NCBI GenBank assembly: GCA_963575745.1
Contig: CAUYUJ010014760.1
Span: 838,201 to 902,200, forward strand
DNA: 64,000 nt
Origin: Prorocentrum cordatum
Taxonomy: Eukaryota > Sar > Dinophyceae > Prorocentrales > Prorocentraceae
Reading direction: 5' to 3'
A program made the position numbers and the translations under genes. Shown piece by piece: positions 884 to 63,074 of the stretch. The stretch's first letter is position 1. Every line of letters starts with the position of its first letter. Below the pieces are notes generated by a model. It saw nothing but the letters and a program-made list of their open reading frames with translations, was not told where the DNA came from and made no database searches.

Positions 884-3190
884 ATGTCATGCCAGCGCGG
901 CTGGCCATCCATATTTACTTCGTTCGCGTTCTTCTGGACGATATTCCTGAGATGGGGTGTGTCCAACCCGCTCAGCACGGTCGCGCCGCCGAGAAGCTGG
1001 CAGAGAAGCTGGCAGATGTCGAGACAGTTCAGCGCTGACGACTTCATCATGTTACCAGCCACTCGTGGGAGGCAGTTCGCCACCACCAGCCCCGACGACC
1101 AGCATCAGACCTACCTGCACCGCTTCGACAAGAGGAGCTTCGGCAACGGCCCTACCACCAACAACCAAGCGGGAGTGGCCAGCGCGATCTGCAACCTCTA
1201 CCGCATCAATCGTGTGACCGCGCTTCCCAGCCCGCCACCGAGCATTCAAGGACGTGCAGGAGCAGTTCGCCTTCGCCGAGGAGGACTCGACACGAAGGTC
1301 ACTGTTGCGTCTCCACCCTTACGGTCAGGGCTCGCCAAGCACCACTACGCTCGGGTCAAGCAGATCAACGAGAAGCCCCAGAGGACCAACCAGACTCAGA
1401 ACGTGAAGCACAACAGGAGTACGCCGATCCCCGGCCCAGTCCTGAACGACAACTACGGCAAGGACGGATTGCTTCCCGCCAAGTTTAGCAACGTGATCGG
1501 CGACCCAGGCGCTATAAGAGTACCTGGAGCGGCAACCGCTGCCATCCACTACACGCTCGACGTGCACGGCAGGTGCATCCTGAACAATTCCTGGGAAGCG
1601 GGGCCCACGTACTTCAGTGACCACGGGCAGGCCACAAGTCTCGACCACATTGCAGTGCCTCACGGTCCATGCTACCACACTACGTATTGCAGAGTCTGGT
1701 GGCGAATGATTAAGGCCCCCCAACTCATCAATTACAACGTGACGCGCGACCTTGCCCTACCGAATGCAGCCGCCAACGTCATCATCCCGAATGTGTTCAT
1801 CGACTTAAAGAGGACCGCCTGGGACTACGACAAGACGGCCCGGGCTCTGCAGAAGGGCAAGTACCACAAGGAGTTCAATGACGTGACGGAGTTCTACTTC
1901 GGCAAGCACCAGGACAAGCTGAAGAAGTTTGTCGGGGACAACACAGTGGACGAGTTCGTGGGGCTCCCCGCGATCCTCATGAAGGACGCAGCCATCGAGG
2001 AGCGCACCCACGAGGTCAGGCAACGACGACAACACGCCGAAGTTCTTCAACAGTCTCGCATAATGGCCAGCTCCAAATACGGCAAGCGCAACCGCAACTA
2101 CAGCCGCGCGACCAGAGCACGCCCCAGTGTGCAGGAGTGGGTAGTTCACATTGCAGCAGACGGCCAGCACGGAGGGTTTAGTGCTCGCCAGCTCGACCTC
2201 GAGGAGGAGCAGCGCATCTCGAAAGAGACCTCCCACGAGTTCACCACAGAGCACAACCTACAAGTTCGCCAGGAACAAGAGGACGCCAAGGACGGCATCA
2301 AGCGAGCTATCTACGGCGTCGCCAAGCGGCTCAAGTACTTCAAGAAGTGCGCCCCCGTGCCAGACTGGATACTGCCCGCCGAGATCTTCCAGATAACCTT
2401 TCAGCTCACCTACTTCACCAAGCAGCAGCCGAAGTCGACTGGCGCGGGCTACGATGACGAGCTCGCCGCGCCCCCCCTCGCGCAGGAGAGCTCCGAGCCA
2501 GTCCTCAACCACGCGTACCGCGTCGGCTTCAAGTCCAAGCCGTGGCCACTTCCACCTCCCCTGGCTCGCGGCTGCTGGCCTCATCGGCGTCGCGAATACC
2601 CCGCGCGCCAACAGCGCGGAGGAGAAGCCTACCAGGCCAAGGGCGACCTCAAGCTGAAGAAATCGCTCACGGAGATGATCAAGCAAGTGATGTCCAACAT
2701 TCAGCAGATCGCCTGGGTCGTTTTCGCCGTCTACAGCACGTATCCGACGTCGGCTCAGTCCGAGGGGATCGAGGCGCTCCATGCCTGCAGGAAGAGCTAC
2801 GCGGGCAAGCGCAAGGAGGCGGGCAAGGGACGCTCGCTCGCTTCGTCCCCCTGCCCCGCGGACGTGGGCGACAATACTAAGAGCAGTCTCACAGAGCACG
2901 GGGAGTTAGTGGACCAGTTCAGCGTGGAGACAGACCTCTACAAAGTGAAGCACCCGAAGCTCAGCACGTGCGATGACAGCTACCACGCGAAGTTCACACT
3001 GCATCTCGCGCAGGGGCCCAGGACCGTCGCCGAGGCAGAGGAGGTTCCGCAAGAGGAGCCGAAGCAGCAGTGCAACACCAGGGACAGCAACCACAGCGCG
3101 CCGATCCAAGTGGGAGCTACGGCGAAGACGGATCAACCACTTAAGGGAGTCATGGAGGCCGAGCTGGCTGCGTGGAGGGCAGGGCTATGA
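884..3190 (+). CDS. LINE-type retroelement ORF fragment, endonuclease-like part (decayed)
   Basis: A 768-codon frame stays open here. Around residues 195-270 it resembles the C-terminal half of an endonuclease/exonuclease/phosphatase (EEP) domain as found in dinoflagellate LINE ORF2 proteins: the segment GPTYFSDHGQATSLDHIAVP matches the usual PTYF...S-x-x-D-H/F-x-x-P pattern, where the Asp sits near the active site. Following segments (TAWDYDKTARALQKGKYHKE; later a charged helix-rich linker ending in AKRLKYFKKCAP) resemble the linker between EEP and reverse transcriptase. The N-terminal EEP motifs look scrambled, and I see no reverse transcriptase YxDD motif before the frame ends, so this is a truncated or decaying copy. 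The ATG at 884 is only the first Met of the frame. The strand and the EEP likeness are fairly sure; the exact limits are not. Confidence 0.5.
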   Translation: MSCQRGWPSIFTSFAFFWTIFLRWGVSNPLSTVAPPRSWQRSWQMSRQFSADDFIMLPATRGRQFATTSPDDQHQTYLHRFDKRSFGNGPTTNNQAGVASAICNLYRINRVTALPSPPPSIQGRAGAVRLRRGGLDTKVTVASPPLRSGLAKHHYARVKQINEKPQRTNQTQNVKHNRSTPIPGPVLNDNYGKDGLLPAKFSNVIGDPGAIRVPGAATAAIHYTLDVHGRCILNNSWEAGPTYFSDHGQATSLDHIAVPHGPCYHTTYCRVWWRMIKAPQLINYNVTRDLALPNAAANVIIPNVFIDLKRTAWDYDKTARALQKGKYHKEFNDVTEFYFGKHQDKLKKFVGDNTVDEFVGLPAILMKDAAIEERTHEVRQRRQHAEVLQQSRIMASSKYGKRNRNYSRATRARPSVQEWVVHIAADGQHGGFSARQLDLEEEQRISKETSHEFTTEHNLQVRQEQEDAKDGIKRAIYGVAKRLKYFKKCAPVPDWILPAEIFQITFQLTYFTKQQPKSTGAGYDDELAAPPLAQESSEPVLNHAYRVGFKSKPWPLPPPLARGCWPHRRREYPARQQRGGEAYQAKGDLKLKKSLTEMIKQVMSNIQQIAWVVFAVYSTYPTSAQSEGIEALHACRKSYAGKRKEAGKGRSLASSPCPADVGDNTKSSLTEHGELVDQFSVETDLYKVKHPKLSTCDDSYHAKFTLHLAQGPRTVAEAEEVPQEEPKQQCNTRDSNHSAPIQVGATAKTDQPLKGVMEAELAAWRAGL

Positions 3191-4561: not shown

Positions 4562-5392
4562 TGCTGAGGCAGGCTGATGCTGAGGCAGGCCGAGGCTGAG
4601 GCCTGAGGCTGAAGGCTGATGAGGCTGAGGCTGAGGCTGAGGCTGAGGCAGGCTGAGGCTGAGGCTGAGGCTGAGGCTGAGGCTGAGGCTGAGGCTGAGG
4701 CAGGCTGAGGCTGAGGCCGAGGCTGAAGGCAGACTGAGGCTGAGGCTGAAGCAGGCTGAGGCTGAGGCTGAGGCAGGCTGAGGCTGAGGCAGGCTGAGGC
4801 TGAGGCTGAGGCTGAGGCTGAGGCTGAGGCTGAGGCTGAGGCTGAGGCTGAGGCTGAGGCTGAGGCTGAGGCTGAGGCTGAGGCAGGCTGAGGAGGCTGA
4901 AAGGCTGACTGAGGCTGAGGCTGAAGCAGGCTGAGGCTGAGGCTGAGGCAGGCTGAGGCTGAGGCTGAGGCAGGCTGATGCTGAGGCTGAGGCTGAGGCT
5001 GAGGCTGATGCAGGCTGAGGCTGAGGCAGGCTGAGGCTGAGGCCGAGGCTGAAGGCAGACTGAGGCTGAGGCTGAAGCAGGCTGAGGCTGAGGCTGAGGC
5101 AGGCTGAGGCTGAGGCTGAGGCAGGCTGAGGCAGGCTGAGGCTGAGGCTGAGGCTGCAGGCTGAGGCTGAGGCAGGCTGAGGCTGAGGCTGAGGGCTGAG
5201 GCTGAGGCTGAGGCAGGCTGAGGCTGAGGCTGAGGCAGGCTGAGGCTGAGGCAGGCTGAGGCTGAGGCCGAGGCTGAAGGCAGACTGATGCTGAGGCTGA
5301 AGCAGGCTGAGGCTGAGGCTGAGGCAGGCTGAGGCTGAGGCAGGCTGAGGCTGAGGCTGAAGCAGGCTGAGGCTGAGGCTGTGACTGCGACT
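4562..5392. repeat. GAGGCT hexamer minisatellite
   Basis: About 830 bp consist of GAGGCT repeats interrupted at intervals by GCAGGCT variants, which give a higher-order pattern. The minus strand reads as a long Ser/Ala/Leu/Gln/Pro frame, an artefact of the period-6 repeat. Confidence 0.95.
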
Positions 5393-12760: not shown

Positions 12761-13235
<475 letters not shown>

Positions 13236-13711
13236 GGAGGGCGAGGAGAGGAGGGCGCGCGGTTCTGCTCCAGGAGCGCTCCGAGCAGGTCTGCGCCCCG
13301 CGCGGCGCCGCAGCGCTCCGTCGAGGGGCGCCCGCGCGCAGAGTGGCTCCTACCCCCTACCTGAGGTTCCCTGGGGCTCCTGAGGTCCTTTCCCTTCTCC
13401 ATCCTTTCCCTTTTCCGTTTCTTCTCCTTCTCCTCTTCCTCCTCCATTTTTCTCTTTCCCCCCTCCTTTCCCTCGCCCCCCCCCCCCCCCCCCCCTCCAC
13501 CCCCTTTCTCCCCTCCCCTCTTTCTTCTTCGCCTCAAAGAGAGGGAGAGAGGCAATCATGCAATCGCAATGCATTCCCAGAGACGAAAGAGGGTGGGCGA
13601 CCCCCCGCCCGACAACGAATATTTTCAGATTCGATGTCACTCGGCCTCCAATAATAATAATACCAATAACAATGATACGTATAATACGTATAATAAGTAT
13701 ACTAATACTTA

Positions 13712-17237: not shown

Positions 17238-17590
17238 ACGCAGAGGCCTGGAGCCAGACCCCCTCCCCCCCCTTCCGCCGAGCGTCGAAGCGCCGAGTCG
17301 GAAAACGCTCACACGCAGGAGACTGGTGCATCCCCAGATTCCAACCTGCTTTGGGGGCGCCTTCCTGCCTCACGCGTCGAGCGCTTGTCCCGCCTCTCTC
17401 GTCTTCGGGGGCGAGGGCGGCGATCCGACGCGCCTCCGGCGCCTTCCTACCTGGTGCTTCCACCCGCTTCCTCCGACCGGTAGGAAGGGCTCGCGTGCCG
17501 TTGCCTCTTTTGGTCAGGATGCATCTTCTGGGAGTTTCAATTCGGCGTCGGCACTGGCATGCCCGTGGCCAAAATCAGGCCCAGCTTGGT

Positions 17591-17612
17591 CCGTAGCCAT
17601 TTTGGCTCAAGA
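17591..17612 (+). other. Relic dinoflagellate spliced leader (22 nt, exact)
   Basis: The 22 nt begin TCCGTAGCCATTT and end TGGCTCAAG. They match the dinoflagellate trans-spliced leader consensus (first base A, G or T) with no mismatch. This sequence is normally added to mRNA 5' ends from a separate SL RNA. Finding it in the genome 21 nt upstream of the first ATG of an intronless gene is the known signature of a processed mRNA copied back into DNA. It is not an SL RNA gene: the leader is followed by ACATTG, not a GT donor. Confidence 0.9.
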
Positions 17613-17633
17613 CATTGTGGCAGCTCTTCAGGA

Positions 17634-18218
17634 ATGGGGAACATTTGGTTTGCGCCTATTGCTGCCAAGCCCATGTTACTCCGCCGTTGCCGCAATGAAC
17701 GTCGGGTGCTTGCGGGAGCGTTCGCCATCCTGCTCGTCGGCCGCGGCTGCGTTGCCGCCGATGACTTAGTCAAGACCCCGGAGGAACGCTGCCTGATGGA
17801 GGACGATTCGCACAACTGCGACGCCACGAACGAGGCCGATGGCGTGGGGCTACTCCAGTCACGGGCGTCGGGCCCCAGCGAACCGCAAATCGCGAACATT
17901 TGGAAGGACGAGACGCCTGACCACAAACAATATGAGGAGGCGAGAGTGGAGGATATACCGATCGATGTCCAGAACCTCAACTCTACCATGCATCGCCAGC
18001 ACAAACATCCTGGCGACGTGCATCTCCGTTCCTCGAAGTGTGAGATGGAGTGCCCTCAAGCAAGCACTCACTGCTGCATTCAGGATGGTTATGAGGTAAC
18101 CCAATCTTGCTGTGTGGGTGATAAGGTTGCTCCAGGATATCAGTGCCCATATGGATCAGGGAATAAGTGCACAGAGGGGCATTGTTGTGATAGTCACGCG
18201 ATCTGTAGCCCGTGCTAG
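17634..18218 (+). CDS. Small secreted Cys-rich protein, intronless retro-copied gene
   Basis: If transcription or the ancestral mRNA began at the leader relic, the first ATG is at 17634 (194 aa); a second in-frame ATG at 17673 (181 aa) gives a more classic signal peptide, MLLRRCRNERRVLAGAFAIL, followed by LVGRGCVA and ADD. An acidic stretch follows with the motif EADGVGLLQ, a pattern I associate with secreted dinoflagellate proteins and also seen at 26419. The middle is hydrophilic and has a possible N-glycosylation site (NST). The last 60 residues are Cys-rich with three CC pairs (HCC, SCC, HCC) and end CSPC; this suggests a disulfide-bonded extracellular domain. I do not recognise the fold. 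The frame is unbroken and ends at TAG; no poly(A) tract follows. Codons upstream of 17634 in the same frame include the leader itself and should not be coding. Confidence 0.8.
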   Translation: MGNIWFAPIAAKPMLLRRCRNERRVLAGAFAILLVGRGCVAADDLVKTPEERCLMEDDSHNCDATNEADGVGLLQSRASGPSEPQIANIWKDETPDHKQYEEARVEDIPIDVQNLNSTMHRQHKHPGDVHLRSSKCEMECPQASTHCCIQDGYEVTQSCCVGDKVAPGYQCPYGSGNKCTEGHCCDSHAICSPC

Positions 18219-18658
18219 CTCAATTGGCCTCTTCTGAATCCCGTGCGCGCTCATTTTAAAGTCGCGTTCGCCGGGTCTGTCCGCCCGGCGCGACCCCAGC
18301 GAAGCGAGATTGGCAACGCGAGATGGGGGAAGCGAGCCGTAATGGCAACAAACAAAAACATATCAAGCCCAGTTTGGCAACATCCCGCTCGATTATGTGC
18401 AATCCTGCTCAGTCCAGCTCAATCTTGGGCTCAATCGGACCCGATCCGTTTCAATGACCACGAATCGGGCCTTATAGTTCTGACTCGATCTTGCGAAGAC
18501 CTACCAGGAGTTGTTTCCTTCGATGTCTGTTCATGGGAGCCTGGGGCGGCGACATTGAAATCAGCTTTTCCTACATTTGGACAGCATTTGGCCCTGCCTC
18601 CTGATCCTACTCGCCCTTCACCTCCTCGCTCTCCTCGTCTCCCTTGTGAGGCGGCGAA

Positions 18659-18755
18659 TGCGGCCCCAATCCGGTCCACATCCGGTGGCACCAAATCCGG
18701 TCCAAATCAGGCCCAAATCCGGTCCAAATCAGGTCCAAATCAGGCCCATACACCC
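18659..18755 (+). repeat. 12-bp tandem repeat, AAATCCGGTCCA type
   Basis: About seven degenerate units alternate AAATCCGGTCC and AAATCAGGCCC. Confidence 0.8.
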
Positions 18756-19379: not shown

Positions 19380-19844
19380 TCCTGGCCCCCTGCCCCGCGG
19401 GGCCCGGGCCTCGGCGCCGAGGCGGCCTTCCAGTTCCCCTGAGGGGCGGCGCCCGCGCTCGCGGGGCGCGCAGGGCGCGAGGGCGCGCGGGGGGGGGGGG
19501 GGGCCCCCCCCCCAGCCGCGGGCCCCGCGCCGCGCCGCGAAGCGGCGAGAGGGGGCGCCCGGCCGCAGGCGTTGCGGGGAGAAGGAAGCGCGCAACGTCG
19601 AGCCAGGCACGGGAGATGGGTCCGAGCGATGGCGGGGTCCCCCCTCCCTGCTGGGCCGTGTGGTCTCAGCCCCACCATCGGTTGGGGACACGTCCCGCGT
19701 GAACCGAAGGGAGCAGCATATTGAGTATACATGTTTCTACATTTGCATGTTTGTACTGTATCTGTACGTGTGTATATACCTATACGACCACCCTTCGGGT
19801 GATAAGGAGGTTCGGGGGGGAGGAACCAACGTCTCACTCGATCG

Positions 19845-20080
19845 GTCTCACTATCGATCTCAAAATCGATCTCACTATCGGTGTCGCTCGATCGATCCCA
19901 CTCGATCGATCTCACCATCGATATCACTCGATCTATTTCATTCGATCGCTCTCACAATCGATCTGACTATCGATCTCACAATCGATCTCACTATCGATCT
20001 CACTATCGATCTCACAACCAATCTCACATTCGGTCTAACTATCGATCCCACTATCGATATCACAATCGATATTACAATCA
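19845..20080. repeat. 12-bp ATCGATCTCACT tandem repeat
   Basis: About 19 degenerate units of ATCGATCTCACT or ATCGATCTCACA run into the CAT array that follows. Confidence 0.9.
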
Positions 20081-20084
20081 ACGT

Positions 20085-20243
20085 CATCATCATCATCATC
20101 ATCAACATCATCGTCATCAACGTCATCAACATCATCATCAGCATCATCGGGAAACCATCATCATCATGATCACCTCATCAGCATCATCACCTCATCACCA
20201 TCATCATCAACATCATCATCACCAACACCATCACCATCACCAC

Positions 20244-20295
<52 letters not shown>

Positions 20296-20358
20296 GGAAC
20301 TCCATCATCGTCATCATCATCGGGGCACCATCATCATCAGCAGCAACATCACCATCAA

Positions 20359-20410
<52 letters not shown>

Positions 20411-20468
20411 GGGGCACCATCATCGTCACCACCATCACCATCATCATCATCGTCATCAACATCGTCAG

Positions 20469-20511
<43 letters not shown>

Positions 20512-20574
20512 GGGGCACCATCATTATCACCACCATCACCATCACCATCACCATCACCATCATCATCGTCATCG

Positions 20575-20633
<59 letters not shown>

Positions 20634-20635
20634 GG
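20085..20635. repeat. (CAT)n array, about 550 bp
   Basis: CAT repeats are interrupted four times by a GGGGCACCATCATC or GGGAACC-like phrase, which gives a higher-order pattern. Poly-His and poly-Ile frames here are artefacts. Confidence 0.95.
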
Positions 20636-20735
20636 GACACCGACGGGACACCGACGCGACACCGGCGGGACACCGCTCGCCACCGGCCCCCGAGCGGGAC
20701 ACCGGCGGGACACCGCGGGGCACCGGCCGCCCGGT
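20636..20735. repeat. 11-bp CGGGACACCGA tandem repeat
   Basis: Seven or more degenerate units of CGGGACACCG lie directly after the CAT array. Confidence 0.8.
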
Positions 20736-33953: not shown

Positions 33954-35310
33954 TCACTCCCTCTCTCTCCCCCTCTGCCCTCGCTTTCCCTCCCTGCCTC
34001 CCACATCCCTCACTCGTTCTCTGTCTCCCTCACCACCACCCCCCTCATCTCCCTCTCGCTCTCTCTAGCCCTCCCCTCTCCCCTCCCCCCCCCCCCCTGC
34101 ACCCGCATCCTCTCTCCCTGCCTACCCCGCCGTTCCACGGCAAGCGCCTGCGCTTCGACGTATCCTCGGCGTTGTTCTTCCCATGAGTCAGGGAGCGCCC
34201 CATCGCCTGATGAGATAGCGTCATTCACATAGCCACAGCCGCCCCCCCCGTACATGGCACGCTCTGTTTGAAGAGGCCGTGCTTGCAGCACCGCGCAAAC
34301 ACACCTCCAGGCAGGGATCCCTCGAGCAAGCCATGTACCATCTGCATATATCCTTGCACGGTGCTACATGCATAACCTCATCTGCACAGCTGTGCCAGCA
34401 CAAGTACCACCCCCTCCACGTTTCACAATGTGCCTTCTTCACTCTCGCGTAGTCCTCAGTGCTGATCTCTGCCCCAGTGCACTCCACGTCATTCTTTTCC
34501 GTGACCCCCTCGATCTGTTTGAAGATGCTCCACGAGAATTTGTATTGTTTGATGCCTTGTCGAGCCAACGACTTGTACTCGCTGGGGCGCTCCTCTAAGT
34601 CGCCCGACTCGCAGAGTATGTGCGCGTGCCTTCCCTCCCGCGCTTGCCCGATCAGCACATAATCTTCCCCAACAGGAGGGCGCCCCTTGGCTGGCGATTT
34701 CAGCCGTGGGTTTCTTGATAAGGGAGATTGGAGTCGGCGGATTGGCGTCAGCCTCTTGAATACCTTGCCCTCCTGTCCCCTATCATCCGTCATCCTGCTG
34801 CATCCGCGCGTACACGCTGGCGCATCCTCTGACGTGCTGCGCCGTTGTCGTCCTCCCCCTCCGATCCTCATCATTATTCTCCTCCTCGTTATCCTCATCG
34901 TCATCCTTATTCTCCACTCCTCCGTTTACTCTCCCTCGCCACCCTCGTCTTGGATCAGCCCGCCGTTTTTGTTCGGGGACCATGCTGGCACGCAGCCCCC
35001 CCCCCCCCCACCCAATGCACGAGTCACGGCCCTGACATGCCCCTCCCCCCACTGTTTCGAGTTCAGCCACTGCGGGCCCGCCAATTGCTCCTCGTGGAGC
35101 CACTGCGTGGCAGCTTCGTCCTTCTCCTCTTTGCTCACGGTGGTGGAGCTGTTGGCGCTGCAGGTGCCGCAGCTCGGGTCCACAACGAACCTGGGCTGAC
35201 GGACGCCCTCCTCGTCCCTTCCATTCTTCACCAAGCCAATCGTCCCCCAGTCTCCTTGCAAGGTTTGCTTCGTGTCTACTTCCTCCCCAGCCTCTCTCTT
35301 CCATCATGTC

Positions 35311-35360
<50 letters not shown>

Positions 35361-36100
35361 GAGCTCTCTCTGACTCAACTATCTCTCCCTATCCCTCTCT
35401 TTCTCTCTCTCTCTCATTCCCCCCCTCCCCCCTCCATCTTGAGGGGCGGAAGGGAGCAGGTCGGAGAGGGTGAGAGGACAGGACATACATTACATCCCTC
35501 GCGCAGGCTGGTCTCCCCCTCCACTCACCCATTAGGTTCAAATGAACACCTGCAGATCCACTGTCGGCGCTCCTCGTCCGTCTTGATCTTGGCGTACTCT
35601 TCCGCCTGGGCTGCGCTGGAGGGATTTGCTCTCATTGTGTCCCTGGGATCGTTTTTACGCTGAATTACTTTCTGAGAGCACCTTCGTTTCGTTTTCAAGC
35701 TTTGTATTTCGAGGTGGCAGTGGGGATTACCATCGTTTCGTGATGTCGTTCTCGTTTGGCTTCTGATTGTTTAACATCTGGTAAAACTAACGCAGCCCCT
35801 GGCGAATCAAACAAGAGTGTTCGAAGCAAGGCACAGGCGCCTTGTCGCCTAAGTTGTACTTCATAGCGGAAAAGAGGTCGGCCCTCATCTTCCTGGGAAA
35901 TTTCTTGATGTCATCAGGCGATAGATCCTCCAGAGCCTTGCCAGCCTCCAGGATCTTCTTGCGGGCACAAAGCACAGCCTCCAGGGGGGGAGCATGGAGA
36001 GGACGAGAGAGGACGGGAGAGGAGAAGGTATCCCAGCCTTCGGGGTTTTCTCCTTGTCGCTCTCGGAAGCCGAAGCAGCTGCCTTCTTGCTCTTGGCCAT
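31965..36100 (-). CDS. Gene B: dinoflagellate repeat-family protein, at least nine exons
   Basis: Modelled exons (5' to 3'): 36100-36038, 35978-35841, 35605-35550, 35190 to about 35020, 34592 to about 34400, about 33690-33423, 33064-32978, 32650-32588, 32018-31965 (stop TGA). It starts MAKSKKAAASASESDKEKTP. Conserved-looking parts are MRADLFSAMKYNLGDK joined to AEEYAKIKTDEERRQWIC, then RFVVDPSCGTCS, LHEEQLAGPQWLNSKQW, RQGIKQYKFSWSIFKQIEGV, a Lys/Glu coiled-coil-like stretch, KKYPEAMLTFVDSQ, and a final STWADLKKMS. This order matches a widespread dinoflagellate family as I recall it; its function is unknown and it may be element-derived. Donors are GC (exons 1, 2, 7) or GT (3, 6), acceptors AG|G; the exon 4, 5 and 8 ends lack a clear donor. 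Introns hold long purine/pyrimidine arrays. Confidence 0.7.
32080..32475. repeat. Intronic GGA tract followed by CTC tract (inverted pair)
   Basis: GGA repeats occupy about 32095-32340 of the plus strand and switch to CTC/TCC repeats at about 32345-32475. The two tracts can pair with each other. Both lie in the last intron of gene B. Confidence 0.9.
33240..33990. repeat. (GA)n tract and (CT)n tract in gene B introns
   Basis: GA repeats lie at about 33255-33320 and CT/CCTCT repeats at about 33780-33960, on either side of the exon at 33690-33423. Confidence 0.85.
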
Positions 36101-36344
36101 GGCGAGGCCCCCCCTTCCTGCACGTACAGACGTTGCAAAACCGTTCTGGGCCCGATCCAGCTGCATGGGGATCATTGTAATTATCTGCCCTGTCCTCCTC
36201 CTCCTTGTCCTCCTCCTCCTCCTCGTCCTCCTCCTCCCCCTCCTCCTCGATCCTTCTTCCTCCTCCCCCTGACCACCGCAAACCTGGCAAGTCAAGGGCG
36301 GCGGGAGGTCCCGCGGGCGTTTCGGTGCAGGCTTCGACGGACAC

Positions 36345-36650
36345 ACGGGAGAAATGACAGACACACGGGAGAAATGACATAAAAAATGACAGAAACAATG
36401 ACAGAAAACCTTAGAAAACCTGTAAAAACACAGGTAAAACCATCAATCCTGAGATTTCTGTCATTTCAAAATGCCGGAAAAAATGCCGGAAACCCTTACG
36501 AAACCTGTAAAAAAACACTATAAACCTACTTTTTCTGTCATTTACATAAATGCCGGAAATCTTAAGCAAACCCTGTAAAAACACAGCTAAACTCAACTTT
36601 TCTGTCATTTTCATTTTTTCTGTCATTCCAGAAATGCCGGAAAAATCTAC
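36345..36650. repeat. About 95-bp imperfect tandem repeat between genes A and B
   Basis: Three units share CCTGTAAAAACACAG, TTTCTGTCATTT and ATGCCGGAAA. A 20-bp phrase, GACACACGGGAGAAATGACA, is duplicated just before. TTTCTGTCATTT is also the key word of family K. Confidence 0.75.
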
Positions 36651-36817
36651 CCGACGAGGTCCGAAACTGGCCCGAACGGGCGCGCGAGACGGGCGAAACG
36701 GCCTCGAGTGGGCGCAAAAGGATTTTTGGAGGCAGGAGGGTGGGAGGAGCCATAGTTCCGAGGACAACGCAGCATAATCCACGTTGCGATCTGTACGCTG
36801 CTAGCTCTTAGGATACC

Positions 36818-39800
36818 TCACTTGTCGTCACTACCAGACCTGAACGCGGCGAAGGGCATCATCGGGCGAATGTGGGACGGCCGCTCTGCGCTCGGACTGC
36901 TGCCAGTCGTCCTGCGGGCGAGTTTGCGACCGCGAAGCACTTCTCCGAAGTCCTGGGTCGGTTTCTTCTCTGGGGGATCGGAAGACTGATCAGGTATAGG
37001 CGTAGGCGAGAGAGGCAACGAGTAGGAGAGGGAAGAAGGTGATGAAGATGAGGCGGAGGTCTGGCTTGTGGGAGCTGTATTCGTATCCTGGTCAGGTGTA
37101 GTCCGCTTCGTCGGGCTGGGAGTAGGCGACTCAACCACACTTGGACCAACTTCGTTCCGCACCGCCTGCGAGTCACACATCTGGGGGATGTTTCCTGTTC
37201 GCAAGTTCAGCCACGGGACCAGCCCAGCTCGAGGAGGAGGAGGGCGAGCAAGAGGGAGGAGGAGGTGGGCAGGAAGAGGACGAGGAGGAGGAGGATGAAG
37301 CGGGGGAGAAAGAGGGGGGGAGGGGGAGGGAGGAGGAAGATGAGGAGGAGGAGGAGGAGGAGATATCACATTCTGAACGGATGTCCTGAACCAGCCCCAT
37401 TCTTCTCCGAAGCAGGCCCTGCATAAATCATGCTCTCCTCGTTCCTTTTAGCTAGCTTACTCCTCCATATGCTTCTCTCCATTCACCTTGTGATCCTCAT
37501 GGTTCCACATGGGGTTGCCCTGCCTGCTGCCACTGCTGTTCCGCCTCTTCCTTCCCCTCTTCATCCTCTTGTTCATCCTCCCCCTCCTTTGCCCCTAGGC
37601 CTCACTGAAAATAAAAACTCAAACAGTGAGCGCCTCCTCCCATGGCGGCACATCAGTAGCACCATCACCACCAACTGGCTCACCATCGCTTGGAATAACG
37701 ACCCCCCCTACTGCAATGGCACCATCACCCTCAACTGGCTCACCAACCTTTGGAAGAACGGCATGCAAATCAGTAGCACCATCACCGCCAACTGGCTCAC
37801 CAGCGCTTGGAAGAACGGCACCTGATACTTTAGGCAAATCAGTAGCACCATCACCCTCAGCTGGCTCACCAGCGCTTGGAAGAACGGCATCCGATACTGG
37901 TGCCGAAGTTCCCCTTCCCGAACCCGATGCAGACGGTGAAGGCACAACCTAACGTGGCGAGGGGCGGAGCCATAACCAATGGTCCTACCCACACTGTCAA
38001 AATCACCACTGTGGTTTCGATGAGCTTGGAACGGCCCATGGGGCCATGATCGAAACCGTGTTTATGATATCATATCTCGTGTGCACGGGGCCCAGGGTTA
38101 ATTAAGAAAGGGGGTGCTTGGCATGTCCAAGCTTGGGGGTTACAACGATGCCAGCGAGTGGACTAAACATAAACGGAGGTGGGGGATGGGGGAGACGCGC
38201 AGCGGCTGCGTAGTTTTCCAGGTGAGGCGTTTGCGCCCAAAGCGAGGGGAGGGGTGGTTCTCGGGTGAGGGCGCGGAGCGGGGACAGTGAGGTGGATCGC
38301 GCCGAGCAGGGGAGTTGGGCTCAAGGGATGACCATTGCCAAGATCGACGTTGCGCATTCGCCGCTTGGCATGATGCCTCTCCCCCCACCACCGCACCTCT
38401 TCCACGCCCTGCCCCCCTCACGTTGCTTGCTCCTGCTGGCGCTGACCCTCTCTGAGTTTATCGAGGCGCTTCCCCCCGCAATGATGTGATCGGCCCCATC
38501 TTTGCCCCACGTCTCGAGAGGCACGTTCAGCGCATGTATGATCATACATGCGCTGAACGTGCCTCTCCTGCAGCCTTGCGTCCTTTGCCTCCGTCTCTCG
38601 GCGCCAACTTCCCTTCCACCTGTCCCATTGGGCCTGGGCATCCCTCTCCCTGACGGCGGCCGAGGGCTCGCCTCCATCTTTGATCGGACGCCCAGGGATG
38701 CCCCATCTGCAGCATCTCCTGCTCCCTCCACGATGTGCGGCTGCTCGTCCTCAGCTAGCTCTCCCTTTCAGCGGCGCCGTCCTCGATCCTCGATCCTCAC
38801 GGCATCCGCATCTCCTTCCCCCCTTCTTCCCACCCCGACCTCCTCATCAGGCCTAACCCTTTGTCTCATTCAACCGATGAACTCCGCCATCCCACACCCC
38901 CTGCTTTCCCCCCAGCAACGTCCAACTGATAAACTACCATATCCCTTGAACTTGCTGCTTCGGAACATGCGAACGCGATCCTGGAAGCTCGTCGGCGCGC
39001 CTGATCCGCTGGCCGTCATCTGGGCAATGTCGCTGGCGCTGGTCTCGCCTCGTGGTCGGGCTGTGGAGGGGCGCGAATGAAATGGGAGATCGGATGGGAG
39101 GGTTGCGATGGATGAGAGTGGGAGGGTGGGGGGAACGAGTGATGGAAACATTCGGATGAACGCAGGAATCGCCTGACTCCGATATCACACCAGCAGCTAG
39201 TGGAATACGCTCTTCGGCCAGATGTTCGATATCTCTAGCAAAGTCCGTGAACAACTTTACCACCTTGAGACAAAACTGCAGATGGTGACCTTGTCTTCCA
39301 GATTGATCGGCGAGCGTGGAATTGGGGCCGAAAAGGAAGCAGATGGGAACGGGTCACAGAGAGCCTGAATTGGGTTTAAAGGGGCCTGGATTCCAAGCGC
39401 ACACGGGGGCCCATCCGCCTTGTGGGGAACGGGTCACGGGGGCCAGGAGGCTGGTAACTTAGACGGGGGAGTGGGCGGCGGTAGGAAGAGGAGGCGCACG
39501 AAGGGAGGGGGGCGGTGGGCGAGAGGAGGAGGCGGAGGAGGAGGAGGAGGATGATGATGACGCGAATGATGATGCGGATGCGTTGCTGCCCCAAGATAAT
39601 CTAAGCCGCGGACGTGCCGCGGAAGCGTCCGTCTGCTGGTGGTGCGCCACGCCTTCCACCGTAGCAGCCAGCAGTTCCACCCAAGGGGGAGTGCCGATGA
39701 ACTTCCACGACTTGGATGGTGTAACGCGAGCGGCAGCAGCGCCGAGCGGCTCCATGTCCGCAACGCTCATGTATAGTCTCAGGTCTTTGAGGCATGTCTG

Positions 39801-41133
39801 AAGCGGTGGGAACTCGAAGAACTCGCTCGTGCAAGGGCCAACCAGGATAACCCAGGCGCCTCTCGCTAAAGCGAGGCGAATGAATTGGCACACGCTGACG
39901 TACTTAACCACCCAGCTGAACCCAGGCTCACTCGCGGAACGCCCGTGGTCATCGGGCGCCCGCGGCCATTCGCGAGGCAGGGCAATCCAGAGGATGCCCC
40001 CTTGTTTCAACCTGCTAATCACCGATTCTGCACGTTCTGAGCCCTCATGCGTCGATATGTCGTCCGACGCCCCTCTGGATTTATCCAGGCCGTCAGCTCT
40101 GTAACCGTGCTGCCGAAATGCACGGCACATGTTCCAAGAGTCAGCGAAGAGCTCGACCATGTCTAGGGCAGGCAATGGCCTGGGCTGCTTCGGCGCCATC
40201 GCAACCTCACACGGGCCCACCGCACTGTGGCGCCGAGGCAGCCCGCAATGAGAACTGCCAAAACGGCGATGCAGGAATGGGAGGAGGTGAGAGGAGGAGC
40301 GGGAGGATGACGGGAAGGAGGTTGATGTCGACGACGGTGTTTGGGATGATGGCGACAGTGATATAAAATGATGACGGTGATGACAGTGTGATGGCGATGG
40401 TGATGGTGATCGTGTTTGTGTTGGTAAGTGCGACTGTGATGAATAAACGGATGATGATGCGTTACGAGCCCTCTCACGGTGGGCGAGGTTCGCTTGTCGA
40501 CGTCGCTAGCGCACCCAGGTGCCCAGCGATCGGGTTTCGTATACACTGTTGCAGGCTCAGAAGTTGTCCCTCACGCGCTTGGCCATCAACCTGACCGCTC
40601 CCAGTGCCTCTCGGCCCATATCCTGGCGAGGAGGGGCCCACGCATCGGCCCCCTCAATCATCCATCCAAGAACTTGCATCCCCGACCCGTCGAGGTCTGA
40701 TATTTTAAATCCAGTTTTTTGGAGGGGGGGACGATCGAGGGACCAGCGGCCACGTCGGGCCGATCAGCAAACGCATGCCATCAAACGCACGCCCCGATCT
40801 TCAAAACCAGCGCGAGATCTTCGAACCTCTACGCTTCATCTTGGAAGGCCCCATCCTCGCCTTCCTCGAGGCCCCATCCTCAAGGCCATCCTCGAGGCCC
40901 ACATCCTCGCCTCCTCCTCCTCCTTCTCACCGCCCCCCTCATCATCCTGCCCATCGTGCTCGTCAACCCGCAGGGGGGGGGGGGGGAGTCGGAACCGATC
41001 GCGCCAGCAGTCCTTCACACGCGTGTTCTCAGGGATCTCGGCATGCTCCTCAAGGTAGCTCTTGATGGTCTCCATGGCTTGCTTGGGCGCGCGGGCGGCA
41101 CGAGGGCTCTCTCCCTATCTCTCTGTCTCTCTC

Positions 41134-41174
<41 letters not shown>

Positions 41175-41194
41175 CCCGTACCCTTTGTTCTTTC

Positions 41195-41254
<60 letters not shown>

Positions 41255-44200
41255 TCATCTTCCTTCTGCTCCCTCCTCCTCCTCCTCCTCCTCCTCCTCT
41301 TCCTCCTCCTCCTACCCCCCCCCTCTCCTCCTCCTCCTCCTACCCCCCCCCTCTCCCTCCTCCTCCTCCTCCTCCTCCTCCTCCTCCTCCTCCTCCTCCT
41401 CCTCCTCCTCCTTACTGCTGCTGCTGGTGCTGCTGCTACTGCTCCCCCTCCCTCCCCTCGAGGCAGAGAGGAGACGGCGACGACGACACGCTGGAGACGC
41501 CTTCCCCACGACTGGGACGTTGGCATCGTCGAACGCCATATCCCACTTGAGAGCCACAATCTCCGTCTCCACAGTATCCAACTGTTCCAACATCTCTTGC
41601 GTGTCGCATTCTGGAACGTCAGTCTGGACGTGCGCCTGGCGACACAACAATGAACTACTACAAGCACGACGTTGGAGATCGTGGAGACAGGGCTTGCGGG
41701 CCCCAACTGATGCGTCGATAGTGGCGGTGGTAACGATAATGCAACGACGATGTCAACGATGACTCCGCTTAACTGCGATACAACACGTGTCAAACTAAAA
41801 ACAAAAACACAAGTCCTCCACGGTCTGATCCGTGCCCGCCTGGTCCGCACTAACCTGAACTATCTGCGCCTTGTCGTTCGACTCCGTCTGCAAGAATAGG
41901 CACAGCATCTGATCAGCACCGCCGTGCCCCGCCCTGACCACGAACGACGCAGTTTGGCACTCCTTCTTTTTCTCATCGGGCTTCTCTGCCGCCTTCTTCA
42001 CTGCCTCCTCTGCGTCCTCCTCTGCCTTCTCCTCCTCCGACCCGTCGTCATCAGGTTTGAAGCTGTCGCTCTCAGCAGGGACGTCATCTGCCGCTGCTGG
42101 TTTCTTGGCTGCCTTGGCGGCTGGTTTCTTCGCGGGGGGGGCCTCGATATCATCCTCATCATCAGCAGCTGCAGGCCTCTTGACCAGGGCGGCCTTCCCC
42201 TTAGCTTTCCCTTTAGCTTTCCCTTTTGGTTTGCCCTTCGGCACAGCGATCGGCTTGGCTACCTCGATCGTGCCGTTCTCACTCAACATCTGATTCAATA
42301 TCTCGGTCTCCACTTCGTGAAGGTCATCGTGCACTGCGATGAGGAAGCCCCTCTCGGAAATCAAACCATCATACATAAGGAGGGGGGGGGGGCGCTACGT
42401 ACAGCCGCTGCCGCTGACCGACGGATCGATCAGAAAGGGACGACGCCTTTTCCACACGCTGGCACGAATTTGCAAACCCAGGACTCGAGGCGAGCTCGTA
42501 AACTGAAGCGAGTGGACCTTGTTCAGCGGCCCGACTGTTCTGCACAAGGGCAGCTCAACCCCTCCCCTAGCATTCATCATCATCACCACCATCATCATCA
42601 TCATCAATCTCTCTCTATCTTTCACGTCTCATGCCTCTTATTTTTCCAGGTGTCCCACCTTGGCCCCTGCTTCAGCGTGCCCGTTGTGCTGTGACCGTCC
42701 GCGTATAGTGTAATGGGCTGGCGCGGTGGTCTTATAGCGCACGTGGGTTCCAAATGCGGAAGATGGGCCGAGCGCTGATTGGACGGCAGCGGACAGAGGC
42801 AGAACAGGGAAATGAGAGACGGAATTGACGAAGAGATGACACGCGAGGAGTCTGGAAAGTTGGGGGTTGGAATGGCAGAGGGACGGCAACGGAAGCGAAC
42901 GTGAACGCGAAGGGTGCGGAACACATTTCTGACGACAAGGGGAACCGATGGAAGCGGTGAAGGTTTGCACTTGGAAAGGCAGAGGGTGGAGACGCAACAA
43001 AAACGAGTATGAAACGTGAATAAAACTACACCCCAACAGTTCGAAACAAAACTCCGATCCTCTTTCCCATCGAAGTAGCGTGCCACGACGTGCTTCGCGT
43101 CTGGGTCGGGCTCGTCGGATGCTTCGGGCCCACATGTGTCCTCGGCAGCACTCGTCGGCCCCGTGCGGAAATTCACGAATGGGTTCTGAACGACCTGGGG
43201 TTTCGTCTTCTCCGCTGTGGCGCTGGCGGTATCGGGGTCCCTCTGCTCAGCGTGGCGGTGGATCAGCTCGAACGCGCGAATGTTATCATTTGGGGGGCGG
43301 CGCCCTGGGGCACGGGGCAATGAAGGGGGAGGCGGAGGAGGAGAAGCAAGACGAGTGGAAGGACTGCGTGAAGGAAGGAAGGACGGAAGATGAGAAGCAG
43401 GAGGAGGAGGAGGAGGAGGAAGAGGAGGAGGGGGCACACTCTCGTGAACATCCCACACCTCCTCACCGCTCCCACCCTGGTCGCTCTCCCCCCCTGGATC
43501 ATCACGCGCCTTCTTCGCGCCCTCGCGGCGGCTGCTATCCAGTAAACTTGCGCCCCCTGGCTGCTCACGCCGCACCCGCGATGCGCGATTATCTTGGCGA
43601 CCACGGGGGATGTTTCATGGTCCGACTGCGCTTGCCTAGCACCCAGCAGCAAAAAAACAGCAAATGCGAACATCCTGGAACAGCTTCGCCATCCGTTCGG
43701 AGACCTTGGTCTCTGCACCGTCGTCCTTGGAGGCCTTGCGTTGCAATGCGCTAGAGTTGAAGCGCATGGGAAGGGAATACGAGAGAGAGAGAGAGAGAGA
43801 GACCGAGAGCGTGAGAGAGAGAGATAGAGAGAGAAGCAGGGACGCAGATGAAGGGAGAGAGACAGATAGAGAGAACTCGACAGAGACAGCACCAGGGGCA
43901 TAGACAGAGACACGGTGACATCTGTATATATATAGAGAGAGAGAGAGAGGGAGAGGGGAGAGAGAGAGAGAGAGAGAGAGTGAGAGAACGAGGCAGAGAA
44001 ACACACAATGCGCTGTGCGTGCCTGGAGGGCGTCGTAGCGCAGCCGCACGTGGCTGCACATGACCCTGAACCCGTAGGCGATCCGCTCCACGGCCTCGAG
44101 ACATGTTATTTCACGCTACCGCTGACCCGCTGTTACCCACCTCGCAGATCGACCCCTCGGCTTGAACTGCTGTGGGCGTCAACGCCATCTCCACCATCAC

Positions 44201-45246
44201 CACCACCCCCATCATCATCATTATCATCATCAGCATCATCATCATCGTCGTCATCGTCATCATCATCATCATCATCCTCATCATCACCACCACCATCATC
44301 ATCATCATCATCATCATCATTGTCAACATCGCCACACTATGTTCAAACTGCTTCTCATCGTTGCCTTGCACCCTCACCCATGATCATTCATCCACCTCTC
44401 ATCTTCCTCCTCATCTATCTTTCTTATCCCTCGTCTACCCTCTCGCAGGCCTCATTCTCCGAACACTTGAGGCTGTGAGAGAAGAAGTTGAGCTTCTGCT
44501 TGATGATGGGCTTCTCCTCATCGCTCAGGTTCGCGATGGCCTTGTGCGCTGCAATCTTGAAGTCCTCCTGCGGGTTCGTGGGGCGGGGTGGGTGGCGGCG
44601 CGGGTTGGGGAGGGAGTCGGGGCTCCTGGCAGAAATAGCCACCGCGTGGGTCGAGCTTGAACAGTTGCTCCAATGAGTCGAAGCACGACTCCATGTACGG
44701 CTGGCGAGGCGGGCCAACGGGGCGGGGGCAGCAATGAATCATCGGAGGTTGGGGGAACATGCGAACCCACTAGAACAATATCAACGATGGGGACAGCTGG
44801 ACAGAAGACAGGACAACCGTGCCAGAACACCATCGGAGTAGTATGGTGAAGGGGAGGGGAACGCGGAGGAGAAGGAAGGAGGAGGAGGAAGATGGGGAGG
44901 AGGACGACGACGAGGAGGACGAGGGGCAGGACGAGGAGGAGGACAAGGAGGATGAGGAGGAGGAAGAGGAGGATGAAGAGGAGGAGGAAGAGGAGGAGGA
45001 GGAGGAGGGGGAACATAGAAGGAAGATATATGCAACGTGGTAGCTCAAAAATGAGGTTCCTGATCATAACCACTCCTGAGCTTCATGTCGTTGCTCATGT
45101 AGGGCCCCTTATCGAGAACGAAGCTCAGGCTGGGCACAATACAGGGGGCCAACGCAGCTGGGGTATCGCCATCGTCGGCTGCCCAGCACTTGACCCGCCC
45201 CATCTAGATCTCTCCCGTGCACTTTGGGCCAGCAAGTCGGCTCCGA
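36818..45246 (-). CDS. Gene A copy 1: large multi-exon family gene with methyltransferase-like module
   Basis: Coding blocks in order: about 45200-45060 (weak); to 44626 (SLEQLFKLDPRGGYFCQ); 44567 to about 44455 (EDFKIAAHKAIANLSDEEKP); about 44100-44025 (ERIAYGFRVMCSHVRLRYDA); about 43745-43680; about 43560-43445; about 43300-43065 (NDNIRAFELIHRHAEQ); 42376-41816; 41635-41501; about 41076-40990; about 40714-40568 (MQVLGWMIEGADAWAPPRQD); 40179-39601 (methyltransferase-like). Further blocks down to a stop at 36818 (VVKLFTDFARDIEHLAEERI; SASDIAQMTASGSGAP; an AVLPSAGEP repeat; a Ser/Pro-rich end) may be the same gene or another. A 58-bp intron (44625-44568) has a GA donor, AG acceptor and CAGGAG at both junctions; other donors are GA (after 41816) and GC (after 41501). 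I recall this order from a dinoflagellate repeat family. Its start is not resolved. Confidence 0.55.
37655..37905. repeat. Four imperfect 57-69-bp tandem units, possibly coding
   Basis: Each unit contains ACTGGCTCACCA and TTGGAAGAACGGCA. On the minus strand the open frame reads four copies of an AVLPSAGEPVGGDGATDL-like peptide. The same array is at 56421-56671. Confidence 0.7.
38516..38567. repeat. 52-bp perfect palindrome without spacer
   Basis: It is centred on TGATCA; each 26-bp arm contains GAGAGGCACGTTCAGCGCAT. All 26 pairs match. Copy 2 at 57282-57333 is also perfect. Confidence 0.95.
39601..40179 (-). CDS. Gene A exon: Rossmann-type methyltransferase-like domain, probably inactive
   Basis: The exon reads PLPALDMVELFADSWNMCRA, then FRQHGYRADGLDKSRG and DDISTHEG. 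This is the ELFA...A-x-R-x-x-G-x-x-x-x-G-x-D pattern of C5 cytosine methyltransferase motif I and II as seen in a dinoflagellate-specific family. Later come LKQGGILWIALPREWPRA and RGAWVILVGPCTSEFFEF. In active C5 methyltransferases the first of these segments carries a Pro-Cys catalytic pair; here the aligned place reads Pro-Arg, so catalysis is unlikely. The end, after SAARPRL, runs into an intron with GGA repeats. Copy 2 is nearly identical (about 58945-58367). Confidence 0.6.
41265..41415. repeat. (CTC)n tract in a gene A intron
   Basis: It is preceded by (CT)n stretches (about 41100-41255). Both are shorter in copy 2 (about 59870-60118). Confidence 0.9.
41501..41635 (-). CDS. Gene A exon, 45 codons, intact in copy 1
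   Basis: It reads AHVQTDVPECDTQEMLEQLD, then TVETEIVALKWDMAFDDANV and PVVGK. The acceptor is CCAG|GCG and the donor AAG|GCG (GC type). Length is 135 bp, a multiple of three. The same exon in copy 2 (60342-60207) is 136 bp. Confidence 0.65.
41816..42376 (-). CDS. Gene A exon: N-terminal conserved part plus Lys/Ala/Pro-rich linker
   Basis: The exon opens YDGLISERGFLIAVHDDLHE and VETEILNQMLSENGTIE, a segment I recall from the same dinoflagellate family, followed by a basic linker of GKPKGKAKGK and PAKKPAAKAAKKPAA type, an acidic stretch, then FVVRAGHGGADQMLCLFLQT and KAQIVQVSADQAGTDQTVE. The donor is GAG|GACTTG (GA type). The linker would suit nuclear localisation; this is inference from composition only. 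An upstream block (about 42575-42400; SVYELASSPGFANSCQR) may join here in another frame. Confidence 0.65.
42570..42605. repeat. Short (CAT)n tract
   Basis: The corresponding tract in copy 2 (about 61281-61338) is longer. Confidence 0.85.
44205..44325. repeat. (CAT)n array in a gene A intron
   Basis: About 120 bp are CAT repeats with CAC and CGT interruptions; it differs in length from copy 2. Confidence 0.9.
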
Positions 45247-50940: not shown

Positions 50941-51655
50941 GCAGAGCGGAGAGGAGCCCAATCGATCCGCATCGCCGGCATCTGCAACTGGCGTGAGGCG
51001 GCCCAGACGCTGCGGAGTTCCCAGATCGCTTCGCGTGCCACCTCCGAAGAAATTCGCAGGTGAAATCGAAGTGCTTCGAAGGTCCCTCCGAATGGCTCCC
51101 AAGGTACGTGCCCGCGGGCCGCTTCGAATGTCAATCCCCCCTACCCCTCCACCTCCCCTCTCGCATATTGTTTGTGGTGTGGGCCCCTGTGGCTCTCGAC
51201 CCCTTCCCCAGGGCCAGTTGTTCATATCCTGGGTATAACTGTTTCACTGCCCCAGGGCTGGTAAACGGCGCACAGAGGCAGAGAACGCAGAACACTGGCC
51301 GCCGCGATTCTGGCGTGCGATGCCCAGATCTGAGCACAGGAATGGAGATCTGAATACACATACGTGATCGGCGCTGAACGCGCCGCCAGGGTTGCGCGGG
51401 CCTCCGAAAAAAAGAAAAAAACATGCTTATGTCGTTCTTTGTACTCAAAATGATCGCAGAGACGTCAGACTCGGGTTCGGGGGACGCGGGAGGGCCAACG
51501 GGGCCGCCAGGAAACGGCGAGGCCCAGTCTGGAAGTTGATGCGAAACCCCGCTGCAGGCATCCCACGAAAGCTGGACCAGGTCCGTCAGAAAACCGCTGG
51601 CGAACCAGAGATTTCTGGCGAAATCGAGCCTCCTCGCGCAAGGCTCGGGGTTTGC

Positions 51656-53923: not shown

Positions 53924-54065
53924 GCAGCTCGGGTCCACAACGAACCTGGGCTGACGGACGCCCTCCTCGTCCCTTCCATTCTTCACCAAGCCAATCGTCC
54001 CCCAGTCTCCTTGCAAGGTTTGCTTCGTGTCTACTTCCTCCCCAGCCTCTCTCTTCCATCATGTC

Positions 54066-54108
<43 letters not shown>

Positions 54109-54845
54109 CTCTCTCTGACTCAACTATCTCTCCCTATCCCTCTCTTTCTCTCTCTCTCTCATTCCCCCCCTCCCCCCTCCATCTTGAGGGGCGGAAGGGA
54201 GCAGGTCGGAGAGGGTGAGAGGACAGGACATACATTACATCCCTCGCGCAGGCTGGTCTCCCCCTCCACTCACCCATTAGGTTCAAATGAACACCTGCAG
54301 ATCCACTGTCGGCGCTCCTCGTCCGTCTTGATCTTGGCGTACTCTTCCGCCTGGGCTGCGCTGGAGGGATTTGCTCTCATTGTGTCCCTGGGATCGTTTT
54401 TACGCTGAATTACTTTCTGAGAGCACCTTCGTTTCGTTTTCAAGCTTTGTATTTCGAGGTGGCAGTGGGGATTACCATCGTTTCGTGATGTCGTTCTCGT
54501 TTGGCTTCTGATTGTTTAACATCTGGTAAAACTAACGCAGCCCCTGGCGAATCAAACAAGAGTGTTCGAAGCAAGGCACAGGCGCCTTGTCGCCTAAGTT
54601 GTACTTCGTAGCGGAAAAGAGGTCGGCCCTCATCTTCCTGGGAAATTTCTTGATGTCATCAGGCGATAGATCCTCCAGAGCCTTGCCAGCCTCCAGGATC
54701 TTCTTGCGGGCACAAAGCACAGCCTCCAGGGGGGGAGCATGGAGAGGACGAGAGAGGACGGGAGAGGAGAAGGTATCCCAGCCTTCGGGGTTTTCTCCTT
54801 GTCGCTCTCGGAAGCCGAAGCAGCTGCCTTCTTGCTCTTGGCCAT
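53924..54845 (-). CDS. Gene B copy 2, 5' exons only
   Basis: Exons match copy 1: 54845-54783, 54723-54586, 54350-54295, and the first 22 bases of exon 4 (from 53945) before the gap cuts it. Splice sites are unchanged (GC, GC, GT). One residue differs in exon 2: FSATKYNLG for FSAMKYNLG. The (CT)n tract in intron 3 is about 10 bp shorter than in copy 1. Confidence 0.7.
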
Positions 54846-55556
54846 GGCGAGGCCCCCCCTTCCTGCACGTACAGACGTTGCAAAACCGTTCTGGGCCCGA
54901 TCCAGCTGCATGGGGATCATTGTAATTATCTGCCCTGTCCTCCTCCTCCTTGTCCTCCTCCTCCTCCTCGTCCTCCTCCTCCTCCTCGATCCTTCTTCCT
55001 CCTCCCCCTGACCGCCGCAAACCTGGCAAGTCAAGGGCGGCGGGAGGTCCCGCGGGCGTTTCGGTGCAGGCTTCGACGGACACACGGGAGAAATGACAGA
55101 CACACGGGAGAAATGACAGAAAAAATTACAGAAAAAATGACAGAAAACCTTAGAAAACCTGTAAAAACACAGGTAAAACCATCAATCCTGAGATTTCTGT
55201 CATTTCAAAATGCCGGAAAAAATGCCGGAAACCCTTACGAAACCTGTGAAAAAACACTATAAACCTACTTTTTCTGTCATTTACATAAATGCCGGAAATC
55301 TTAAGCAAACCCTGTAAAAACACAGCTAAACTCAACTTTTCTGTCATTTTCATTTTTTCTGTCATTCCAGAAATGCCGGAAAAATCTACCCGACGAGGTC
55401 CGAAACTGGCCCGAACGGGCGCGCGAGACGGGCGAAACGGCCTCGAGTGGGCGCAAAAGGATTTTTGGAGGCAGGAGGGTGGGAGGAGCCATAGTTCCGA
55501 GGACAACGCAGCATAATCCACGTTGCGATCTGTACGCTGCTAGCTCTTAGGATACC

Positions 55557-59868: not shown

Positions 59869-59899
<31 letters not shown>

Positions 59900-61297: not shown

Positions 61298-61338
<41 letters not shown>

Positions 61339-63032: not shown

Positions 63033-63074
<42 letters not shown>

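Follow-up and report, generated by a model that had tools for sequence, protein, structure and literature searches.

A probable processed cDNA bearing a spliced leader, with a probable target-site duplication and A-tail remnant, in Prorocentrum cordatum

A 772-nt segment at 17590-18361 of the window, by which we mean the whole 64,000-nt stretch of Prorocentrum cordatum contig CAUYUJ010014760.1 analysed herein, is best explained as the processed cDNA of a leader-bearing mRNA, inserted by a LINE-type mechanism together with a target-site duplication (TSD) and an A-tail, and we put the probability of this reading at roughly 0.77. As summarized in Table 1, the features seen in the sequence itself are the dinoflagellate spliced leader (DinoSL), the duplication, the A-rich stretch, a leader-UTR-signal block in common with two related proteins, and a 1-nt difference from these relatives at the old start codon. 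The GC content of the window was 58.15%, and a value of 59.7% is stated for P. cordatum in a passage of PMC10666404.

Table 1. Features of the retroposed segment and its flanks (window coordinates)
Feature	Position	Strand	Remarks
Putative earlier leader (degenerate; not part of the insert)	17498..17518	+	15/21 ungapped; low confidence
5' TSD copy ATCAGGCCCAGCTTGG	17574..17589	+	Ends exactly at the leader; 14/16 to 18362-18377
Complete DinoSL relic	17590..17611	+	22/22; followed by ACATT, without a splice donor
5'UTR of the retroposed mRNA (83 nt)	17612..17694	+	Equal length in P0002 and P0003
Start ATG of the first-pass annotation	17634..17636	+	Excluded by the residues of P0002 and P0003
Conserved start codon	17695..17697	+	Not in frame with the long ORF in this copy; Met in 3/3
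Signal-peptide core and next residues (LAGAF...LME)	17709..17801	+	27/31 with P0002
Main body of the uninterrupted frame	17709..18218	+	Cys-rich tail at about 18012-18215
Inferred 3'UTR	18219..18345	+	Placed between the stop codon and the A-rich stretch
Decayed poly(A) tail CAACAAACAAAAACAT	18346..18361	+	11/16 A, directly before the 3' TSD copy
3' TSD copy ATCAAGCCCAGTTTGG	18362..18377	+	14/16 to 17574-17589

The first-pass annotation had reported a mismatch-free 22-nt spliced leader in genomic DNA, and this was borne out by a 22/22 match to DinoSL on the + strand. With up to 3 mismatches allowed, the window holds no other; none was found in 100 shuffles, and a chance occurrence was thus ruled out. 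Directly 3' of the leader stands ACATTGTGG, which holds no splice donor, and the leader therefore does not belong to an SL RNA gene. A search of the window against Rfam, which may not cover dinoflagellate SL RNA, returned 0 matches. A genomic DinoSL located outside an SL RNA gene and upstream of an open coding frame is accordingly what is found at 17590-17611. The leader ends at 17611, so that the distance to the ATG at 17634 is 22 nt and not 21 nt as previously counted.

A search for a tandem leader remnant found nothing downstream to 17760 at 11/21 or better, except for an 11/21 match overlapping the leader itself. Upstream, an ungapped likeness of 15/21 is seen at 17498-17518, a level reached at just one other + strand place, and its gapped score of 10 compares with a null expectation of 0.33 peaks per 64-kb strand (6 random sequences). 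The same letters can also be read as a pyrimidine tract followed by an AG/G acceptor (AG at 17516-17517, the preceding 18 nt including 14 pyrimidines). We regard a degenerate upstream leader outside the duplicated target with low confidence and place no reliance on it; if real, its order, decayed upstream and perfect downstream, would run opposite to simple recycling.

The earlier interpretation of the locus as recycled processed cDNA was strengthened by the flanks, because the last base of the 16-nt duplication directly adjoins the leader, while an A-rich tail (CAACAAACAAAAACAT, which includes C's) immediately precedes the second copy. The 3' copy at 18362-18377 is the sole match of at least 13/16 to 17574-17589 elsewhere on the + strand of the window. 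With thresholds that were set after the site was seen, at least 14/16 identity combined with at least 11/16 A at a distance of 640-1000 was met with at 1 of the 125,968 start positions on both strands, namely the leader site, whereas at least 14/16 alone was not rare (852/125,968). Looser cut-offs over the same distance gave 2/125,968 (at least 14/16 with at least 10 A), 10 (at least 13/16 with at least 10 A) and 29/125,968 (at least 12/16 with at least 10 A), and when the distance was widened to 500-1500, the same four cut-offs gave, from strictest to loosest, 2, 7, 28 and 86 of 124,968. Among 144 assumed boundaries ranked by score and then by A content, the exact leader boundary came first; boundaries 17582 and 17583 likewise reached 14/16, but without an A-tail. 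The pair had been missed by the repeat finder, whose seed of 7 exceeds the longest exact run of the pair (6).

Two marks of a LINE-type insertion are thus present, a TSD ending at the cDNA 5' end (14/16 at the exact boundary, imperfect and judged post hoc) and an A-tail right before the 3' copy (11/16 A, decayed). An AAAA run (17571-17574) preceded by CC lies at the start of the duplication, giving CC/AAAA, whereas a LINE endonuclease would favour TT/AAAA. Further downstream, at 18680-18750, a short satellite-like repeat (AAATCCGGTCCAAATCAGGCCC) resembles the start of the duplicated target.

To search for relatives, a word-based screen of 5.8 billion proteins was carried out with the window protein (P0001), in which 58 candidates were scored and one match was obtained, the 136-aa P0002 encoded on a 493-bp NCBI contig (27/31 residues over LAGAF...LME). 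With P0002 as the query, P0003, a 78-aa EukProt entry labelled Pyramimonas, was found, and a further search of the protein collection after this yielded no more relatives. Both relatives are known as proteins alone; the nucleotide differences given here are accordingly minima, and the flanks are comparable over 9-10 codons. The leader-frame translation of the window reads SVAILAQDIVAALQ...SAVAAM, its first seven residues being the translated leader. From the leader to the start Met, P0002 aligned with it gap-free over 36 codons (21/36 residues; at least 17/108 nt differences), and P0003 aligned gap-free with at least 9/108 nt differences. The residues of P0003 are compatible with an unchanged leader (0/30 differences over the first ten codons), and those of P0002 require at least 3/21 leader changes. 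Of 127,826 placements of the UTR segment of P0002, none fitted as well as the window 5'UTR (14/87 minimal mismatches, against 30 for the runner-up), and over LAGAF...LME the minimal nucleotide differences were 4/93. The match to P0002 ends after LME, where an intron in P0002 is possible.

P0003 departs from the window at its end, where RSAV-stop fits another window frame at 17782 with 2/12 differences and the same stop, a frame change of its own, with 12 nt after DDL versus 13 nt in the window. Its protein reads through the relic from upstream, the frame extending 10 codons 5' of the leader. A DinoSL-compatible relic with a matching UTR is thus recorded under a green-alga label (Pyramimonas), and the P0003 record is probably a case of contamination or mislabelling.

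Both relatives plainly resemble the window once the leader begins but show no clear resemblance over the 27-30 nt before it, which likewise strengthens the recycling reading. Over the ten codons from the leader on, the window site beat all other + strand places for each relative (1.6e-5 of positions), whereas the upstream flanks fitted with 15/30 differences for P0003 (as good as 19% of positions) and with 12/27 differences for P0002 (as good as 8% of positions). A likeness that starts at the leader is what is expected from separate retropositions, and judging from these sequence comparisons the same mRNA family, represented by two relatives that maybe come from other species, appears to have undergone retroposition at further loci.

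Searches for further related loci added the following. In the protein-collection searches no intron-bearing full-length parent was found. Within the window the gene is present once: the best tblastn match elsewhere has E 0.15, and the one DNA match is of 34 nt at 51146-51178 (E 5e-4). P0001 gave nothing against viral contigs, and P0003 against genome contigs gave 295 pattern matches with 0 confirmed. Eight viral contigs (L002-L009) matching GGCTCAAGACATTGTGGC were dismissed for absence of the leader (2 to 4 of 13 leader bases upstream).

The frame at 17634-18218 is open over 194 codons plus stop, as the first-pass annotation had stated, and it is uninterrupted; it is not, however, bounded by the leader, and 17634 is not its conserved start. 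The stop-to-stop open frame spans 17484-18215, and the ORF listing begins it at the ATG at 17559; being open past the leader up to 17484, the long frame does not have the leader as its boundary in DNA. In the gap-free alignment from the leader, the Met common to the window, P0002 and P0003 corresponds to the ATG at 17695, 83 nt after the leader. Neither of the two relatives can have an ATG at 17634, and one at 17673 is excluded by the residues of P0002, while P0003 could have one. The distance between the ATG at 17695 and LAGAF is 14 nt in the window and 15 nt in both relatives, so by comparison with these proteins the window copy shows a 1-nt shift of frame at the old start, be it genuine or due to a sequencing error. 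Being 1 nt short here, the window has its 194-codon frame begin in the old 5'UTR, and the first 20 or so residues of the protein as initially annotated would be former 5'UTR. If the copy is expressed, translation of the long frame would, the conserved ATG being out of frame, begin at 17673 or 17634, in the former 5'UTR, or further upstream. The window copy may be a retrogene with an altered N-terminus or a decaying retropseudogene. Position-specific GC was mildly coding-like, with a third-position GC of 0.50 in the Cys tail versus 0.71-0.81 in front of it.

The signal peptide, LLQ motif and CC-pair tail noted previously are all present, with a hydrophobic signal-like stretch (LAGAFAILLVG) whose core was judged by eye. 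No family was found for P0001 in Pfam, searched to E = 1, or in NCBIfam, searched to E = 5, and the Cys-rich tail had no match in the protein collection, its sole PDB sequence match being meaningless (E = 5.4). The NCBIfam matches of P0003 (E = 0.011; 15.3 bits, cut-off 418) and of P0002 (E = 0.12) were too weak to be accepted. As to its function, the product is probably secreted and disulphide-rich.

On the basis of these features we infer reverse transcription and a LINE-type enzyme as follows. An mRNA encoding a small protein destined for secretion would have gained the 22-nt DinoSL via trans-splicing and then been polyadenylated, reverse transcription would have reached its very 5' end, and the cDNA would have been inserted by a LINE-type, target-primed mechanism, leaving a 16-nt TSD and an A-tail that both decayed later. 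Processed-cDNA recycling accordingly stands as the best explanation, but the recent date formerly read from the perfect leader does not: the TSD copies are 14/16 alike, the tail is 11/16 A and the frame has changed at the old start. The argument for recency is weak because the duplication and the tail have decayed, and at about 6% drift per copy an unchanged 22-mer is expected, by our estimate, in about 1 of 4 cases.

The insert resembles mammalian LINE-1 processed (retro)pseudogenes, in which an uninterrupted cDNA carries a 3' A-tail and a TSD of about 16 nt that ends at the cDNA 5' end. It differs from them in its trans-spliced leader at the 5' end and in a target that starts CC/AAAA. Closer to the present case are DinoSL retrogenes, with which the locus has in common a genomic DinoSL before an uninterrupted coding copy and related copies with leaders. 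In passages of PMC6050394, genomic DinoSL serves as the retrogene tag (Song et al., 2018), 22-23% of the genes in two Symbiodinium genomes are counted as mRNA-derived, and the relic-DinoSL recycling of processed cDNA reported by Slamovits and Keeling (2008) is described, as it also is in parts of PMC12014239 and PMC7245778. Caution on relic frequency comes from PMC7245778, in which one relic was found in 0.68% and 2.31% of full-length Polarella transcripts. Unlike these retrogenes, the window locus has a visible leader-anchored TSD with an A-tail remnant, and its conserved start codon is out of frame. No TSD or A-tail was reported for DinoSL retrogenes among the literature matches listed; a part of PMC7789003 uses the term TSD in discussing introners and MITEs. 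DinoSL retroposition is thus a known class of which the window locus is a new member, and its value is as a TSD and A-tail case.

A leader of DinoSL type was also seen in L001 (IMGVR_UViG_3300045993_001077), an AT-rich contig (22% GC) from a viral collection, on which collection its viral nature rests. It has two exact copies on the minus strand, at 2746-2766 and 2893-2913, one of which lies directly 5' of a 254-aa ORF (1936-2700, minus strand). The leader-ORF region accounts for the sole 500-nt bins at 40-50% GC, 10/15 bins having 12-20%, and it adjoins a 975-aa glycosyltransferase gene. This arrangement is suggestive of a host cDNA, tagged with the leader, that was acquired by an AT-rich virus. 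In the P. cordatum window itself, blocks of about 10 kb at 35169-45246 and 53924-64000 are 98% identical in direct order and represent a segmental duplication, and internal repeats at 4563-5388, 12761-13253 and 19825-20641 overlap several long ORFs. Among 18 other window ORFs scanned with Pfam (of 123 of at least 150 aa), 0 reached the curated cut-off, which lent no support to the earlier remark on intron-rich neighbouring genes, and no reverse transcriptase was found among these 18.

The perfection of the leader might reflect selection rather than age, if the leader still functioned as part of a promoter (TTTT motif) or as a DNA-encoded 5' end, and this explanation, which is compatible with retroposition, we consider unlikely, though less so than the other alternatives. 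A promoter role of TTT(G) has been proposed for retroposed DinoSL in a passage of Song et al. (2018; PMC6050394), and the leader is unchanged whereas the TSD and tail have decayed. However, the P0002 leader needs at least 3/21 changes, the above drift estimate already makes an unchanged 22-mer unremarkable, and the P0003 frame running 10 codons 5' of the leader would, if it is a transcript, place the start further upstream. Ordinary DNA duplication of one old retrogene, with an inherited leader and a flanking duplication arising by chance, would account for the leader and UTR common to P0002 and P0003; the 98% duplicated block in the window is a case in point, and since the P0002 flank ranks among the top 8% of positions, the two loci could conceivably share a flank that has diverged. 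We nevertheless hold it to be improbable, as the upstream likeness is unclear over 27-30 nt, the leader-anchored TSD with A-tail occurs at a single one of the 125,968 positions, and the gene has no second copy within the window.

As for the machinery, the part of PMC6050394 on this point describes the element type behind mRNA retroposition as not known, and LTR elements (Ty1/copia) were there held more likely on expression grounds (Song et al., 2018). Retroposition via an LTR-type element seems decidedly improbable for the window locus, where the length of the duplication (16 nt) and the presence of an A-tail are in keeping with a LINE and the longest direct repeat listed within 17400-18560 is 24 nt. 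Duplications made by LTR insertion are usually of about 5 nt. Least credible of all is an assembly artefact in which a cDNA read was joined to genomic sequence: a sequencing error could explain the 1-nt frame difference, but at either end the insert passes into flanking sequence, and the 16-mer copies differ at 2 bases, unlike the product of a chimera.

Insertion of the processed cDNA by a LINE-type mechanism therefore remains our preferred reading, and the locus suggests that the insertion scar can persist in legible form. Since the exact cDNA 5' end is given by the leader, each relic provides a fixed boundary for genome-wide testing of duplications and A-tails; the leader-anchored duplication with its A-tail makes the question of the retroposition machinery testable. 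More tentatively, dinoflagellate mRNA recycling might proceed by LINE-type target-primed insertion, of which this locus would be a direct physical record, and an mRNA family composed of leader, constant 5'UTR and signal peptide might have been retroposed repeatedly, like a non-autonomous retroposon.
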